This document shows, one piece after another, positions 1,620-18,758 of a stretch of DNA of 23,134 nucleotides. Location of the stretch: positions 1 through 23,134 of IMG/VR virus record IMGVR_UViG_3300027784_000052; one strand, given 5' to 3'. This DNA is from a virus. The notes beneath the pieces are model-generated. The model was not told the origin of the DNA and ran no database searches. It saw nothing but the letters and a program-made list of their open reading frames with translations. The stretch's first letter is position 1, and the number at the start of each line of letters is the position of its first letter. The translations under genes and the position numbers were made by a program.

Positions 1620-1874
1620 ATGCCAAAAGGAAAAAAACAAGAAGACCAAAGCAGGAGAAAAGCGACGAAGGTATTCACTGGGATAATGCTATACGTATTC
1701 CTCTCGGTAATAGCCATGGCCGCTTTAACAACAACGGTTATAAGTCAAAGAGGAGCAACAGCGAATCTACAAGAAAAGGTCGAATTAAGAGAAAAAGAAA
1801 TAAATCAACTAATAGATTACTGCGACATGGACGTCAAGGTAATCGAAATCAAGAACCATGAAAAAGAAAATTAA
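1620..1874 (+). CDS. Small membrane protein with coiled-coil tail
   Basis: The gene encodes 84 residues: a basic N terminus (KGKKQEDQSRRKATK), one hydrophobic segment at about residues 18-41, then a helical charged tail (NLQEKVELREKEINQLID). The positive N terminus suggests the tail faces outward. The gene overlaps the next gene, also a single-pass coiled-coil protein, by 17 bases. The pair resembles a lysis or envelope module in topology, but no spanin-specific motif is visible. It lies directly upstream of the transglycosylase-like region. Confidence 0.6.
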   Translation: MPKGKKQEDQSRRKATKVFTGIMLYVFLSVIAMAALTTTVISQRGATANLQEKVELREKEINQLIDYCDMDVKVIEIKNHEKEN

Positions 1875-2169
1875 CAGGGTAATTATATTATTGGCGGTAA
1901 CAGGGGTAATGATTTGGGGAGCGTTCTGGTACACGGCCCCGGAGGAAGCAAGACCAGAACCGGAAACAGAAGCCCCGGAATTGACAGAGCAAGAAAAGAG
2001 AATAAGAGAAGTAATGAGCCGGGAAGAGTTCCAAGATAGGATAGAAACAGAGGCGGAAAAGATTTACTGGGAAGAGGAAAGAGAGAGGGAAATAGAAGAA
2101 CACGAAAAACGGCTTGAGAGGATAGAAAAAGAGCTGGAGCAGCTCCGGGAAGATAGCATCTCTTTTTAG
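1858..2169 (+). CDS. Membrane-anchored coiled-coil protein; probable N-terminal part of a transglycosylase
   Basis: The gene encodes 103 residues. A signal-anchor (about residues 8-25, VIILLAVTGVMIWGAFWY) is followed by a Pro/Glu-rich stretch and a long charged helix to the end. It stops at TAG 2167-2169 directly after a TTTTT run. In the -1 frame the reading continues without a stop into the lysozyme-like sequence downstream, whose own first ATG falls only one codon before the likely catalytic Glu. I infer that this ORF supplies the membrane anchor and stalk of a wall-degrading enzyme, through frameshifting or because a base is missing. As a separate gene it would be a small inner-membrane protein of unknown role. 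Confidence 0.6.
   Translation: MKKKINRVIILLAVTGVMIWGAFWYTAPEEARPEPETEAPELTEQEKRIREVMSREEFQDRIETEAEKIYWEEEREREIEEHEKRLERIEKELEQLREDSISF
2161..2169 (+). promoter_or_regulatory. Possible -1 frameshift site (TCTTTTTAG)
   Basis: In the upstream frame the codons are TCT TTT TAG. The Phe tRNA could slip back one base and still pair perfectly with TTT, after which the frame reads TTA GCT ACC CCC and stays open to 2534. A perfect 6-bp hairpin with a 3-base loop (GAGCTG-GAG-CAGCTC, 2131-2145) lies just upstream. Natural programmed slippage, a real inactivating deletion and a homopolymer sequencing error cannot be told apart from sequence alone. Confidence 0.4.
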
Positions 2170-2210
2170 CTACCCCCGCATCCAAGGAAATAGAAAAGGT
2201 AATCATTGAA

Positions 2211-2534
2211 ATGGAAGTAGGGAGCCGGGAGAATTGCCACGATTTGAGGCACGGCTCTGGCGAGATTGGCTGCAGGGGGTACCTTCTACAAACTTGGCAG
2301 GAATACGCAAGAGAAATTATAGGATACGTCCCGGAGAGAACAGAAGCAAACGAAAGATACGTAACGATAAAGAAGATACAGAGATGGCTGGATCAAGGAA
2401 AGGATCCGGAAACCATATTCTTAATATGGAACCAAGGAAGAGAAGGAGCATGCCGGGCAGGAATAAATTCCCACGGAGTAAGATATAATTCTTGTGCATA
2501 CGTCCGGGGAGCAATAAGAATGCTTGAAAAATAA
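2211..2534 (+). CDS. Lytic transglycosylase / lysozyme-like domain
   Basis: The first ATG is 2211 (107 aa), but the frame is open from 2157, and the upstream residues (TPASKEIEKVIIE) look like the start of the fold. The pattern IIEMEVGSREN, GSGEIGCRGYLLQTW, ERYVTIKKIQRWLDQGKDP and IFLIWNQG matches the layout of SLT/lysozyme-like domains. The Glu in MEVGS is the best catalytic candidate. Four cysteines (in ENC, IGC, ACR and SCA) fit an extracytoplasmic, disulfide-bonded enzyme. With an ATG start the domain would lack its first helix and any export signal. A -1 shift at 2163-2167 would give a 225-residue membrane-anchored enzyme. Likely role: peptidoglycan cleavage. Confidence 0.6.
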   Translation: MEVGSRENCHDLRHGSGEIGCRGYLLQTWQEYAREIIGYVPERTEANERYVTIKKIQRWLDQGKDPETIFLIWNQGREGACRAGINSHGVRYNSCAYVRGAIRMLEK

Positions 2535-2589: not shown

Positions 2590-2862
2590 ATGCTGAAACA
2601 AAAAAGAAGAACAAAGAGGATAAATCCTGAGAAGTGGTATTCGTTAATTGAAATTGTGGAGGGTCGACTATTGGCTAACCTCCGTGGCTGGAAGAGCGTG
2701 CGGAGAGTAGTAAATGCCGATAAAAAACACAAGAACCTTCTCGGTACCGTGATCACCGGCACCGGAAGGGGAACGAAATACCGCGTGAAGGGAGAGAACC
2801 TGAAAAGGTTCAAAGAGGAGTGGGAAAGCGGCAAGTACCGGCTCCTCGAAGAAGAATTATAA
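2590..2862 (+). CDS. Helix-turn-helix DNA-binding protein (90 aa)
   Basis: This is a small basic protein. The block KWYSLIEIVEGRLLANLRGW then SVRRVV looks like an excisionase/AlpA-type HTH, and ITGTGRGTKYRVKGENLKRF looks like the wing plus final helix. I recall very similar small HTH proteins in Patescibacteria genomes. It is probably a transcriptional regulator or excisionase-like factor that binds phage DNA. It follows a probable promoter at 2538 and heads the recombination gene cluster. The local G+C content is higher than that of the preceding genes. Confidence 0.6.
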   Translation: MLKQKRRTKRINPEKWYSLIEIVEGRLLANLRGWKSVRRVVNADKKHKNLLGTVITGTGRGTKYRVKGENLKRFKEEWESGKYRLLEEEL

Positions 2863-3316: not shown

Positions 3317-4198
3317 ATGGCCAAAACAAAAGCCGAGCAAAAAAAGTGCATAGAGTGCGGAAAGAAAAAAGACATTAAAGAGTTTAAGGACAAGAAACTA
3401 AAAAGCGGATACGGAAAGAAGTGCCAAAAGTGTAAAGGAGTAAAGAAAAGAAAGCCAAGAAGAAAGAAAGATGGGCTGGTAAAAATGACAAGCCCTGTTC
3501 GCCCGGAAATGGAGTTCTACGTAGCAAGCGATCAAGCAGACGAACAAGCAATTGAAGCCGAAATAATGGGGCAAGTCCTTCCACACTTCATTTACAAGTT
3601 CAAAGACGGTAAAGGAAACGAAGTGAAAGGATTATCGCTTCAAGGGGTAAGAGAAACCACCCGGAGAATAAACAGAATGAAGAGCAGCGGGCAAAGGATA
3701 AGGATAAGCCCGGAACCTCCAATTATCAGCAGAGACGTGGAATACAATGGCAAGAAAGGCATTGAAATTCTCGTTTACGCGGAGGACATTGAAAGCGGAG
3801 GAGGAAGCTGGGGAAACGCCTTCGAGCCATACGTAAAGGTAGGGAAAGGAGGAAGGACATACCCGAGCCAGTTCCCGGAGAGAGTGGCATTAAGCAAGGC
3901 ACAGAGGAACGCCCTGCGCGCGCTCATACCGGAAACAACTGCCGTAGCAATGATAGACCAACTCTCGAAGGACCAAAACAAGGTAAAGGAGATAGAGGCC
4001 CCGGCGCAACAAACCGACGTAATAGAACCCCAAAAGACAAGTGAACAGCAACTCTACGCAAGTAGCTTGAAAAGAATACAGCAGATCAAAGACGACAAGG
4101 AATCGCTGGAAAAGGCGAAAGCAAAGGTCGACGAGCTCCCAATAAACAAAGAGAATAAAGAAAGATTGAAAAATGAAATTCAAAGCCACCTCAAATAA
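3317..4198 (+). CDS. Zinc-ribbon protein, candidate single-strand annealing recombinase
   Basis: The 293-aa product begins with a zinc ribbon (C11, C14, C36, C39) and a basic linker. A globular domain of about residues 60-225 follows, containing VKGLSLQGVRETTRRINRM, VEYNGKKGIEILVYAEDIE and FPERVALSKAQRNALRALIPE. The ALSKAQRNALRALIPE helix is typical of phage proteins found beside exonucleases. The C-terminal tail is a charged helix. The gene overlaps the next one, a RecB-type nuclease, by 26 bases. That arrangement matches the annealing-protein/exonuclease pairs of phage recombination. The assignment rests mostly on context, and an unrelated ssDNA-binding role is possible. Confidence 0.5.
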   Translation: MAKTKAEQKKCIECGKKKDIKEFKDKKLKSGYGKKCQKCKGVKKRKPRRKKDGLVKMTSPVRPEMEFYVASDQADEQAIEAEIMGQVLPHFIYKFKDGKGNEVKGLSLQGVRETTRRINRMKSSGQRIRISPEPPIISRDVEYNGKKGIEILVYAEDIESGGGSWGNAFEPYVKVGKGGRTYPSQFPERVALSKAQRNALRALIPETTAVAMIDQLSKDQNKVKEIEAPAQQTDVIEPQKTSEQQLYASSLKRIQQIKDDKESLEKAKAKVDELPINKENKERLKNEIQSHLK

Positions 4199-4823
4199 GC
4201 TGCCACTTCCTTACATAAGCTATTCGCAATGGTGGTTATTCAAAAGAGATCCAGAAGAGTACTTCCAGCAATACTATATTGCCCGGGTGGACGAACAGAC
4301 AGACCCCATGCTTCTTGGAAAGATATTCCAAGAGGCGTGGTGCGACCCGGAGGGTTATGATTATGCAAAGGAACTATGGGACGCCGGCTTCACACCAGAC
4401 AAAGCAAGAATAATGAAAACCGCCTTGGATCACCCGTACTTGATAAAAGCGGAAGAGATGAAAGAAACGGAAAAGGAGATAAAGGCAACCCCCCGGAAGA
4501 AAAGAGCGAAGGAACTCGGGCTAACTTATACAATAATGGGAGTACTCGACGGCTGGGACGGAAGAGTAATTGAAAACAAGTTTGGAGCCCCATGGAGCCA
4601 GCAAAGAGCAGACGAGGCAGAGCAAGCGACATGGTATGCGCTTCTAACTTACATAGAAGAAGGAACTATACCGGAAATAATTCTGCAAAGCATAAACAGC
4701 CGGCACGGGATACCCTCGTGTTTCAGAACGAAGAGAAACAAAAATGACCTCAAGCAAATGGTCGAAGAAATAAATAACATGGTGAAGCTCCTTCGAGCAG
4801 GGGACTTTACCCAAAGAGCATGA
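4173..4823 (+). CDS. PD-(D/E)XK exonuclease, RecB/Cas4-like
   Basis: This 216-aa protein has the order of motifs expected for RecB-family nucleases. An N-terminal ISYSQWWLFKRDPEEYFQQYY is followed by LGKIFQEA, the metal-binding D126 (GVLDGWDG), E134-N-K136 (VIENKFG) and the motif Q151-xxx-Y155 (QATWYA). It probably degrades or resects DNA ends to give single strands for the neighbouring annealing protein. No iron-sulfur cysteine cluster of the Cas4 type is visible, so it is closer to simple phage exonucleases. It overlaps the previous gene by 26 bases and the next by 4. Confidence 0.75.
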   Translation: MKFKATSNKLPLPYISYSQWWLFKRDPEEYFQQYYIARVDEQTDPMLLGKIFQEAWCDPEGYDYAKELWDAGFTPDKARIMKTALDHPYLIKAEEMKETEKEIKATPRKKRAKELGLTYTIMGVLDGWDGRVIENKFGAPWSQQRADEAEQATWYALLTYIEEGTIPEIILQSINSRHGIPSCFRTKRNKNDLKQMVEEINNMVKLLRAGDFTQRA

Positions 4824-5956: not shown

Positions 5957-6121
5957 ATGAGAAAAAAATTATCATACATTTTTACAGTACCCGCCTCAAT
6001 TCTATTTTGGATAGCAGAACGAGTAGCGGGAGGAAAACTGGCATGGCGCTGGGAAGAAGTAATTGAAAAGACAGAGTTTACTTGCAAGAGATGCGGACAC
6101 AAAGGTAAACCGAAATTCTAA
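5957..6121 (+). CDS. Small protein with hydrophobic N terminus and CxxC knuckle (54 aa)
   Basis: It starts at ATG 5957, immediately after the previous stop. A hydrophobic stretch (about residues 6-20, SYIFTVPASILFWIA) is followed by GGKLAWRWEE and a single zinc knuckle, FTCKRCGHKGKPKF. It could be a membrane-associated zinc-binding peptide. The last base of its stop is the first base of the next ATG. An upstream in-frame TTG at 5939 is less likely because it lies inside the previous gene. Confidence 0.5.
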   Translation: MRKKLSYIFTVPASILFWIAERVAGGKLAWRWEEVIEKTEFTCKRCGHKGKPKF

Positions 6122-6468
6122 TGAGAAAGATCCCGGAAAAACTAAAAAAAGAGATTGAAGAAAGCGGGCAGAACGACGGCTGTGTATTAGACACCGGAGA
6201 ACACGGCCCATGCGAAGGAGGAATAGAATGGCACCATTGCTTCTTATATGCCGGAAAGCAGATAAACGAGAAATGGGCCATACTCGGCGCTTGCCAAAGA
6301 CACCACAAACTCGCCCACGGAAACAAAGAAGTGAAGAACGCCTTCCGCCGGGAAAGTTTGAAAAGAGCAGCCCCGGAGGATCTTGAGAAGTATCCTCGGG
6401 AAAGTTGGGAACAATTAAAAAAATACTTAAAGGGCGAAGAAGAGCCAGAGGAGGAAATACCCTTTTAG
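6121..6468 (+). CDS. HNH endonuclease-like protein
   Basis: The product is 115 aa. The HNH signature is visible as IEWHHCFLYAGKQINEKWAI followed by LGACQRHHKLAHG. H38/H39 form the beta-alpha-metal start, N49 is the central Asn and H61/H62 are the distal His. C21, C31, C40 and C58 may add a structural zinc. The product could act in replication, recombination or packaging-related cleavage, since free-standing HNH proteins occur in all these roles. The tail is acidic. It ends the recombination operon, and a strong promoter begins 3 bases after its stop. Confidence 0.7.
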   Translation: MRKIPEKLKKEIEESGQNDGCVLDTGEHGPCEGGIEWHHCFLYAGKQINEKWAILGACQRHHKLAHGNKEVKNAFRRESLKRAAPEDLEKYPRESWEQLKKYLKGEEEPEEEIPF

Positions 6469-8460: not shown

Positions 8461-8835
8461 ATGACTAAAAAACAAACAAAGGACACCGAGAAAAAAGACA
8501 GCTACAAGGAGGAATTTACCTTCGGGGAATTGCTTCAAAATATGAAGAACGCAAGGAAACAAAACCTCGTGGAATCTATGGTTGATATAGGATTTCTTGA
8601 AGTGCTCGCGACAGAAGACCCGGAAAGAGAAGTCCCGGACGACAAAGGAAGATTGATCCCAATTCAGCACCGGATAGATGAGATAACAATAGGAATGGGA
8701 AACATCAAGAGAAGGTTGGCGGCGATTGATGAGTTGATAGCAATTGACAAAAGCAACAAGCTCGGGCAGAGATACGACGACAAAGTAGTAAAAGAGGCAG
8801 AGAAGAGAAGAGAAGAAAGAAAAGAAGAAAAATAG
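8461..8835 (+). CDS. Hypothetical helical protein (124 aa)
   Basis: It is charged and mostly helical, with no cysteines and a Lys/Glu/Arg-rich tail (EAEKRREERKEEK). A central segment, RLIPIQHRIDEITIGMGNIK then RRLAAIDELIA, suggests a two-helix coiled coil. It ends 13 bases before ssb, so it is probably part of the same transcript. Not recognised. Confidence 0.5.
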   Translation: MTKKQTKDTEKKDSYKEEFTFGELLQNMKNARKQNLVESMVDIGFLEVLATEDPEREVPDDKGRLIPIQHRIDEITIGMGNIKRRLAAIDELIAIDKSNKLGQRYDDKVVKEAEKRREERKEEK

Positions 8836-11522: not shown

Positions 11523-12021
11523 AGAAATAAACTTATTAGAAAAAAGAATAAGAGCAGAAGTGATTAAGAAGTACATGGAGAGAACAGGAAAGAAGAAGGC
11601 GGTATGCTTTACATGTGGAAACGCAGCGAAAGCCCTAAGGGAAACCGGAGTAGAAACGCTGGCAATAGGAGAGAAGGAGGAATTAAAACCGGGCCACTGG
11701 TTCACGCAGATAGAAATAAAAAACACATTCCCAGAACACTTCAACGCAACGAGTGGAGACATACCTATATTTTTAATGGAAGAAATTGCAAGAAGAATGA
11801 GAATAGCTATAGGAGAAGAACCCCCCAGGGAGATCAGAATAGGGAGTGGAGAGACGGCCGTAGTAATGGCTCTCGCATACCCCGGAAAGATAAACGAATT
11901 TGTATTAGTAAGAGACGGAGGAGAGGAGACAGAATACAATAAAAAAGCAACCCTGAATAGATTAGTAGAAGTGATTTACCGGAGGAGGATTGAGAACGCT
12001 TTCACATTTAAGAAAAGATGA
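11512..12021 (+). CDS. Conserved-looking unknown partner of ParB-methyltransferase (169 aa)
   Basis: The product contains AVCFTCGNAAKALRETGVET, LAIGEKEELKPGHWFT, FPEHFNATSGDIPIFLMEEI, IGSGETAVVMALAYPGKINE and ENAFTF. The Gly/Ser-rich GSGET and the ATSGDIP motifs look like ligand or active-site loops. I recall similar proteins in phage and CPR sequences, but no function. It overlaps the methyltransferase by 11 bases and TerS by 4, so it is tightly coupled to DNA modification or packaging genes. A role in nucleotide or DNA-modification chemistry is only a guess. Confidence 0.55.
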   Translation: MSNKEINLLEKRIRAEVIKKYMERTGKKKAVCFTCGNAAKALRETGVETLAIGEKEELKPGHWFTQIEIKNTFPEHFNATSGDIPIFLMEEIARRMRIAIGEEPPREIRIGSGETAVVMALAYPGKINEFVLVRDGGEETEYNKKATLNRLVEVIYRRRIENAFTFKKR

Positions 12022-12788
12022 ATAAAAAGACTGAAAATAAAAAAGAAAACAGCAAAAAGAAAGAAAAAGGCATTGTGCAAGAATGTGAAAATAACGGAAT
12101 TCAAAAAAAAGACATTTATTACGAATTTATAGTATGGAGTGGACTCCCTCCAACAGAAAGATTAAAGCTAGGAATAGAGACACAAGAAGATTTCTGCAAC
12201 GTTCATAAAATCCACAGAAACACCTTGACAAAATGGAAAAAGTTAAGTGACTTCAAAGAAAGGGTAGAAAAGATAAGAAGAGACTGGGCCTTCGAAAAAA
12301 CAAGTGATATTATTTACGGAATTTACCGCTCTTCAATTAAAGGAAACCCGGCAAGTCAGAAATTGTGGTTACAATACTTTGCTAATTTTGAGGAGACGAC
12401 AAAAGTAAAGCAGAGAATAAAAGTCGAAGTAACAGAAGAAGATATAAGGAATTTAATAAATGTCCTACCAAGAGAAAGACAACAACATTATTACGGAGAA
12501 CTTGCAAATCTCGCAGACGAAGCAGAGTACTATGGAAATAGTCAGCAAGCTGAGAACGTCATTGGAGACGGCAAAAGAGGAGGGACTAATGAAATCTTTA
12601 AGGGAGAGATACAAGGAGAAGCCGATAACCTTCCACAAGAGATATCAGGTAGAGGGATCACCGATGAAATGGCCACGGGTGATAAGAAACACTTACGCAC
12701 AATTATGGCTCAACAAGACCACACGGGCGATTATCAAAGCGCCGAGAGGAGGTGGGAAGAGCAAGCTCCTTGGAACGATCGGATTTGA
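12018..12788 (+). CDS. Terminase small subunit-like, with long C-terminal overlap
   Basis: The first 175 or so residues look like a phage terminase small subunit. A basic N terminus is followed by an HTH-like segment (FCNVHKIHRNTLTKWKKLSD), a helical middle (ASQKLWLQYFANFEETTKVK) and VTEEDIRNLINVLPRERQQH. The rest (about 75 residues from 12550 on) is Gly-rich and lacks visible fold features. It is simply the terminase large gene read one frame off. TerS would recognise phage DNA and load TerL. The long tail may be a lost stop codon rather than a working domain. Confidence 0.65.
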   Translation: MNKKTENKKENSKKKEKGIVQECENNGIQKKDIYYEFIVWSGLPPTERLKLGIETQEDFCNVHKIHRNTLTKWKKLSDFKERVEKIRRDWAFEKTSDIIYGIYRSSIKGNPASQKLWLQYFANFEETTKVKQRIKVEVTEEDIRNLINVLPRERQQHYYGELANLADEAEYYGNSQQAENVIGDGKRGGTNEIFKGEIQGEADNLPQEISGRGITDEMATGDKKHLRTIMAQQDHTGDYQSAERRWEEQAPWNDRI

Positions 12789-14034
12789 CAAGTGGTATTT
12801 CAAGGACCGGAACGTCTTGGACATGGGAGGATCAATGGTGCAGGCGGAAATCGTTTACGGATACTTCAAGGATTATACTGAAGTAGATCCGGAGATAGAG
12901 GAACACGTGGAAGGAGACGTACTCCGGCACAAGACGGTATCGGTAAACAGAAAGTATTTCTCCTGCGTGACAGCAAGCCAGAAGCAAGTAAGAGGAAAGC
13001 ACCCGGACGTCCTATTGAGTGACGAGACATGCGAGACAGAAGACCAAGTGGTGCAGGCGGCGATTCCAACCGTAAGCACAAGTGAGAACCCGCTCGTAGT
13101 GATGGCCAGCACCTTTCACCAGATATTTGGTATCTTTCAAGACACGTGGGATAACGCGGAGCAATACGGATACACAAGATTCGAGTGGGACATATTCGAT
13201 GTAACGAAGGAATTCAGCCCGGACATTTGGAAAAAACATAAGCACATAGACGACATAGACGAGTTGATTGAAAGAGCAGACGGAAGGACAGGAGACCCGG
13301 AAGGTTGGATCCCAATAGAAAACGTAATTCAGGCATGGAAAGAGAAGCCGACGCTGGACTGGTTCGACATCGAGTACATGGGAAGTAGACCAAGCGCGAC
13401 AGGGCTCGTCCTGAAACCGGAGCAAGTGGACATTACCTTTATTGACGAAGAAGAGGAAAAAGAGTATCCTGTAGTAAAGGGAGCGGAACGAGTGATAGGA
13501 ATCGACTGGGGATTCAGCAGCATGACCAGCGTAGTCGATATGATGAGGTACCGGGACGACACGAAAGTGCTGGTAGACAACAAAAACTACACGCAGGTGG
13601 ACAGCGCAGATATTATCAAAGACGTAGTGGAAATGGTAAGGGAAGGAGGACACCGATTCATACTGGCAGACATCGAAGGAAAGTTTGAGAACTCGGCACT
13701 CCAGAATGAGCTGAATAAGCAGGGGATCAAGTGCGAAGTAATAGAAGTGAACTTTGGAAAAGAGAAAACGGAGATGGTGGGAAACCTCCGGGCCCACTTC
13801 GAAAAGGAAAGGATAAAAATACCACACCGCTTCAAGGTTGCTTATTGGCAATTGAAGAGATATAGATACCAACCGGGAACAGACAAGCCCATGAAGGGAG
13901 ATGATCACATCCCGGACGCAATTATGTGCGCCCTTCAAAAAGAAGGTTGGCAAATAGGGAAAAGAGAAAGTACATTGGCGCCAACAGGAGGAGGGACAAC
14001 TATAACAGGGGGTTTGCAGAAAAAAGGAATATAA
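12460..14034 (+). CDS. terL: Terminase large subunit
   Basis: The product is up to 524 aa. The ATPase carries Walker A APRGGGKS (94-101), Walker B VLLSDE (184-189) and coupling motif VVMASTFHQ (213-221). The nuclease carries acidic residues D349 (GIDWGF), D404 (ILADIEG) and the DDHIPDAI cluster (481-488). It pumps DNA into the prohead and cuts it. ATG 12460 immediately follows an in-frame TAA. Later ATGs (12532, 12589, 12664) are possible starts, since the first 40 residues look unstructured. Any of them still overlaps TerS. Confidence 0.9.
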   Translation: MSYQEKDNNIITENLQISQTKQSTMEIVSKLRTSLETAKEEGLMKSLRERYKEKPITFHKRYQVEGSPMKWPRVIRNTYAQLWLNKTTRAIIKAPRGGGKSKLLGTIGFDKWYFKDRNVLDMGGSMVQAEIVYGYFKDYTEVDPEIEEHVEGDVLRHKTVSVNRKYFSCVTASQKQVRGKHPDVLLSDETCETEDQVVQAAIPTVSTSENPLVVMASTFHQIFGIFQDTWDNAEQYGYTRFEWDIFDVTKEFSPDIWKKHKHIDDIDELIERADGRTGDPEGWIPIENVIQAWKEKPTLDWFDIEYMGSRPSATGLVLKPEQVDITFIDEEEEKEYPVVKGAERVIGIDWGFSSMTSVVDMMRYRDDTKVLVDNKNYTQVDSADIIKDVVEMVREGGHRFILADIEGKFENSALQNELNKQGIKCEVIEVNFGKEKTEMVGNLRAHFEKERIKIPHRFKVAYWQLKRYRYQPGTDKPMKGDDHIPDAIMCALQKEGWQIGKRESTLAPTGGGTTITGGLQKKGI

Positions 14035-18374: not shown

Positions 18375-18758
18375 ATGAGTCAAGCAATCAGAGACTTCGA
18401 AAAAACATTCATAGCCGCCGAGGACCTTTCAGAAAAGCAATTCCACTTCGTCAAAATGGACTCGGACGGAGAGGTTGAATTGGCAACAGATGAAAACGAC
18501 GCAATCGTCGGCGTGCTCCAAAACAAGCCGGATAACGGAGAAGCGGCCCTCGTAAGATTTGCAGGAACCACGAAAGTAAAGTGTGGAGACACAATCGGAG
18601 TAGGAGCATACGTTACAAGTGGTGCGGGTGATGACGGAGAAGCAGAACCAACCACGACCGCAGGACAAGTAGTCAGAGGAATTCACATTGGACAGGAAAG
18701 CGCCTCGGACGGAGATGTAACAGAAATCCTGTTGACATACTTCCATCACAAGGAATAG
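18375..18758 (+). CDS. Head decoration protein (DUF2190-like)
   Basis: The product is 127 aa and beta-rich, with the pattern AAEDLSEKQFHFVKMDSDGE, ATDENDAIVGVLQNKPDNGE, VRFAGTTKVKCGDTIGVGAY, VTSGAG and VTEILLTYFHHKE. This repeated strand-turn layout matches phage capsid-stabilising (DUF2190) proteins, which sit on the outside of the mature head. Its place between protease/scaffold and major capsid gene is the usual one. Start context is AAACCATG. Confidence 0.75.
   Translation: MSQAIRDFEKTFIAAEDLSEKQFHFVKMDSDGEVELATDENDAIVGVLQNKPDNGEAALVRFAGTTKVKCGDTIGVGAYVTSGAGDDGEAEPTTTAGQVVRGIHIGQESASDGDVTEILLTYFHHKE

Follow-up and report, generated by a model that had tools for sequence, protein, structure and literature searches.

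A gene for a putative membrane-anchored wall-degrading enzyme in a phage record with Mu-like head genes, interrupted at a short T run, probably by a non-programmed indel

Membrane-anchored wall enzymes of phages are exemplified by the SAR endolysins, e.g. phage Mu gp22 (PMC9239132); Rz-like spanins combine an N-terminal anchor with a coiled coil, and at programmed −1 frameshift sites two open frames in −1 relation meet (PMC5009743). The locus described here was compared with all three. It lies in a window of 23,134 bases, the whole of one virus record, which carries Mu-like head genes and in which a profile search matched the phage families portal, head protease and major head protein. In this window an ORF for an anchor and a coiled stalk ends at a T run, and a C-terminal domain follows in the −1 frame (Table 1). 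The joined protein would resemble the SAR endolysins as a membrane-anchored phage wall enzyme, here too beside Mu-like head genes, and would differ from them in a coiled stalk of ~75 residues between anchor and enzyme. With Rz-like spanins it shares the N-terminal anchor and coiled coil (weak profile matches), but the homologous stalk of a related phage bears an enzyme-like domain and there is no obvious lipoprotein partner. Programmed −1 sites (PMC5009743) are similar in the two open frames at the T run and in that P-site re-pairing is possible, whereas here the stop codon occupies the A site, a stimulator is lacking and the split is not conserved. Closest in layout are the anchored SLT/Rpf-like, DPBB (RlpA-like) and Glucosaminidase-like proteins of ten related phages (L027, L041, L051, L052, L180, L185, L002, L024, L031 and L184), which have the same order of anchor, linker or stalk and C-terminal wall-degrading domain and mostly the same downstream neighbour; in contrast to the locus studied here, theirs are single ORFs, and its domain matches none of theirs by sequence. 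The joined protein would belong with the membrane-anchored phage wall enzymes, with a layout like that of anchored endolysins and a long stalk added.

Table 1. Positions of the features of the interrupted gene and its surroundings in the window
Feature	Position	Strand	Remarks
Small membrane-plus-coil ORF	1620..1874	+	Overlaps start of the 1858 gene; a similar ORF precedes the L184 gene
Anchor-plus-stalk ORF	1858..2169	+	103 aa: basic N-terminus, hydrophobic anchor, charged coiled stalk; ends at TAG
6-bp hairpin 5′ of the break	2131..2145	+	Arms 2131–2136 and 2140–2145; not significant (z −0.11)
Sole stretch open in both frames	2157..2168	+	12 nt; contains most of the T run
TTTTTAG, frame-break site	2163..2169	+	T run 2163–2167 plus stop codon
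−1 frame continuation, C-terminal domain	2166..2534	+	122 aa; lysozyme-like by motifs only; coding by codon usage
First ATG of the second frame	2211..2213	+	Without start context (score −6.52)
Conserved downstream neighbour, position marker	2590..2862	+	Homologues in related phages

The original prediction had described an anchored coiled-coil ORF from 1858 that stops at T5-TAG, a −1 frame open onward to 2534 and a joined product of 225 aa, and all of this was confirmed. The ORF ends with TCT TTT TAG, where the stop codon (2167–2169) begins with the final T of the run; the −1 frame stays open over 2157–2534, and the two parts (103 + 122) add up to 225 aa. The N-terminal membrane anchor was read from the sequence as a basic N-terminus with one hydrophobic stretch; the stalk behind it is highly charged and coil-forming. 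To locate the frame switch, a codon model trained on the window's other genes was used. The best switch point was 2157–2159; the T run came to within about 2 bits of it, and points further on did much worse. The 15 codons from the TAG to the first ATG of the second frame (2166–2210) scored +5.4 bits, and at least +5.4 bits were reached by 58% of true coding windows of 15-codon length, against just 0.5–3.9% of open out-of-frame windows. ATG 2211 lies one codon 5′ of the proposed catalytic Glu, as had been predicted, and 64% of internal ATGs score as high in start context; ATG 1858, at 5.31, outscores 83% of the genes of the phage. Since 15 coding codons precede ATG 2211 and start context is absent there, ORF 1858–2169 and the −1 frame are one gene in two frames, which bears out the earlier view that the domain lacks a proper separate start. 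A chance overlap of two frames was ruled out by the start contexts, the codon-usage switch and the coding score of 2166–2210. Throughout the window, gene starts lie in A-rich sequence in which C or C/T immediately precedes the ATG, and a Shine-Dalgarno-like motif was found for one of the phage's 29 genes.

The stalk was compared with that of a related phage, L184 (record G026), in which a 240-aa ORF occupies the same place as the 1858 gene. The two stalks are homologous, with 37% identity over 65 aa (pairwise BLASTP E 1e-5) and a shuffle z of 6.7 with composition kept; a second search gave 41% identity (E 6.2e-4). A stalk alignment scan of viral contigs returned no match. Because the L184 stalk continues in frame into a domain that is weakly Glucosaminidase-like, the stalk is read as a carrier for the C-terminal domain and not as a free-standing protein. 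This comparison also bears on a reading with two proteins, a spanin-like anchored coil from 1858–2169 and an enzyme translated separately, either from 2211 or through reinitiation past the TAG, which was judged improbable. The first ORF does have weak Rz-like spanin profile matches (E 0.0022) and reinitiation 42 nt past a stop is possible in principle; however, ATG 2211 has the score of an internal ATG and is preceded by 15 coding codons, the homologous L184 stalk leads into an enzyme-like domain, and, with the ATG one codon before the Glu, an enzyme started at 2211 would have neither the helix in front of the Glu nor an export signal. No lipobox was seen by eye in 1620–1874 or 1858–2169. Upstream of the anchored gene, both here (1620–1874) and in L184 (reverse strand, 379–579), a small membrane-plus-coil ORF is present (layout by eye), for which a role as lysis partner is possible.

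Related phages were gathered via neighbouring and head proteins. The nearest major head protein in a cellular genome assembly was that of L066 (labelled Patescibacteria, 52% identity), a match that suggests Patescibacteria as hosts without proving it, so that these phages probably infect this group. In 13 related phage records an uninterrupted ORF with N-terminal hydrophobic anchor, linker and C-terminal domain was found, and a split version in none of the 13. In most of them this ORF lies directly upstream of the homologue of 2590–2862; it is farther from it in L004, L025 and L061, and in L031 the anchored ORF is present and the 2590–2862 homologue was not found. Conversely, L003, L039/L186 and L060/L187 have the marker homologue with no anchored enzyme gene beside it. 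The C-terminal domain is SLT/Rpf-like in L027, L041, L051, L052, L180 and L185 (profile matches were run for L027 and L180, and the other four align with L027 at 39–58% identity) and a DPBB lytic transglycosylase domain in L002, L024 and L031. L004, L025 and L061 have a further domain type, with weak wall-peptidase profile matches in L004 and L025 and L061 placed with them by sequence resemblance alone. L184, with its weakly Glucosaminidase-like domain, is the remaining record of the 13. In L051, two anchored lysozyme-like ORFs were observed in one early region (2381–2908, judged by eye, and 4270–4716). The original prediction had held that one fused ORF in related phages would support an error or decay, and it is this arrangement that the 13 records have.

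The C-terminal domain of the interrupted gene was searched against Pfam, PHROGs and NCBIfam with no match, and no homologue of it was found in viral contigs, phage records, 46 relatives' records or 380 genomes of the phylum to which the L066 genome, labelled Patescibacteria, belongs. By eye, its motifs are an E, about 20 residues later G-YLLQ, then WNQG and a final YVRGAIRM helix, an order that seems to be as in lytic transglycosylases; the spacing from the Glu to the G-LLQ motif is near that of L180. A search of relatives' ORFs for E...GxxQ...WNxG...YV gave none, and neither profile nor pairwise comparison detected significant similarity to the SLT-like and L184 domains. AlphaFold modelled the domain poorly, whether by itself or together with putative distant relatives (mean pLDDT 57.6 and 60.8), and with these low-confidence models a PDB and viral fold search gave no convincing match. 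The four Cys of the domain are in keeping with an exported protein. That the domain is wall-cutting we infer from its motifs and the position of the gene, and on the same grounds the label ‘transglycosylase’ is plausible. Of the membrane-anchored transglycosylase that had been proposed, the single anchored, stalked gene is thus upheld by codon usage, start context and relatives, and the enzyme class stays at plausible, given motifs and position.

The reading that we favour, and consider likely, is that 1858–2534 is one gene for an anchored wall-degrading enzyme which was broken by a non-programmed indel or recent slippage mutation. The N-terminal anchor would hold the enzyme in the cytoplasmic membrane, the coiled stalk would extend outward from it, and the C-terminal lysozyme-like domain would cut peptidoglycan, probably in order to lyse the host or remodel the envelope; a change of one base in the length of the short T run, which lies in the linker leading to the domain, would break the frame of the assembled copy. 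Simplest and most likely as causes of the break are an assembly or sequencing indel and a recent natural mutation. For a check on frame errors, 551 proteins of relatives were matched to the window, none of them in two frames; together the matches span 15.2 kb, in which there are 84 homopolymer runs of at least five bases. As frame errors were absent elsewhere in these 15.2 kb, the contig is not generally error-prone and an isolated assembly error would not be particularly likely. The window has 15 T runs of five in 23 kb, and for one of them to lie inside so small an overlap is unusual; the placement fits a slippage-type cause, and error, mutation and recoding all predict it. Against the favoured reading count that the C-terminal domain has not decayed and that no relative was found with exactly the same C-terminal domain on a stalk. 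A more specific version, with which it overlaps, is that a real, natural frameshift arose recently, in an allele that is decaying or switching, with no technical error involved. We hold this possibility tentatively, since the break sits in a homopolymer and the rest of the contig is without frame errors, yet downstream of the break there are no further stops and no loss of codon bias. A run of five bases is also short for a phase-variable switch, which counts against a natural switching allele.

Programmed frameshifting, which had been proposed as the function of the site, was not borne out. In this reading, programmed or functionally tolerated −1 slippage at T TTT TAG would produce mainly the bare stalk, with anchored enzyme as the minor product. 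Two coding frames in −1 relation do overlap at the site, both are intact and coding, a second frameshift is absent from the 15.2 kb covered by homologues, and tRNA-Phe in the P site could re-pair from UUU to UUU perfectly while the ribosome waits at the stop. In T_TTT_TAG, however, the stop is in the A site and only the P-site tRNA can re-pair, which leaves no tandem slippery heptamer X_XXY_YYZ; the downstream RNA folds no better than shuffles (z −0.69 and −0.06 for pseudoknot-free folds); Shine-Dalgarno use is nearly absent (1/29 genes); and among the 13 relatives' records, in which the gene is fused throughout, none has the split gene, although the same C-terminal domain was found in none of them either. 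On this evidence the reading is unlikely. The 6-bp hairpin noted just upstream is present, but against shuffled sequence it is not significant (z −0.11) and it was dropped as a signal. Recoding of the TAG was likewise rejected, as TAG also ends several other genes of the window, e.g. 6121–6468, 8461–8835 and 18375–18758. Genes are known that tolerate a frameshift through compensatory shifting at a low level (PMC5009743); a real T5 allele could thus conceivably be expressed weakly. That the T5-TAG is real and that single-tRNA −1 slippage at the stop yields mostly stalk and a small fraction of anchored enzyme seems quite unlikely; if true, slippage would keep a potentially lethal anchored enzyme scarce.

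Two other loci of the window were recorded. ORF 12018–12788 overlaps the large terminase gene (12460–14034) by about 330 nt in another frame, and for some 280 nt of this overlap an alignment in both frames was obtained with L022 and L027, which hints at conserved double coding. Near its N-terminus the protein of 3317–4198 is rich in Cys and gives weak profile matches to HNH/endonuclease VII (residues 2–52); the ORFs homologous to it in L003 and L004 have no such stretch.

The analysis averts a false report of programmed frameshifting at a T run before a stop codon. Beyond this single break, it points to a group of phages, with hosts that are probably Patescibacteria, which retain a gene for an anchored, putatively wall-degrading enzyme, mostly beside one conserved neighbour. 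Across the group, unrelated families of predicted catalytic domains appear to have been swapped onto the anchors, and one stalk has been kept with different domains.
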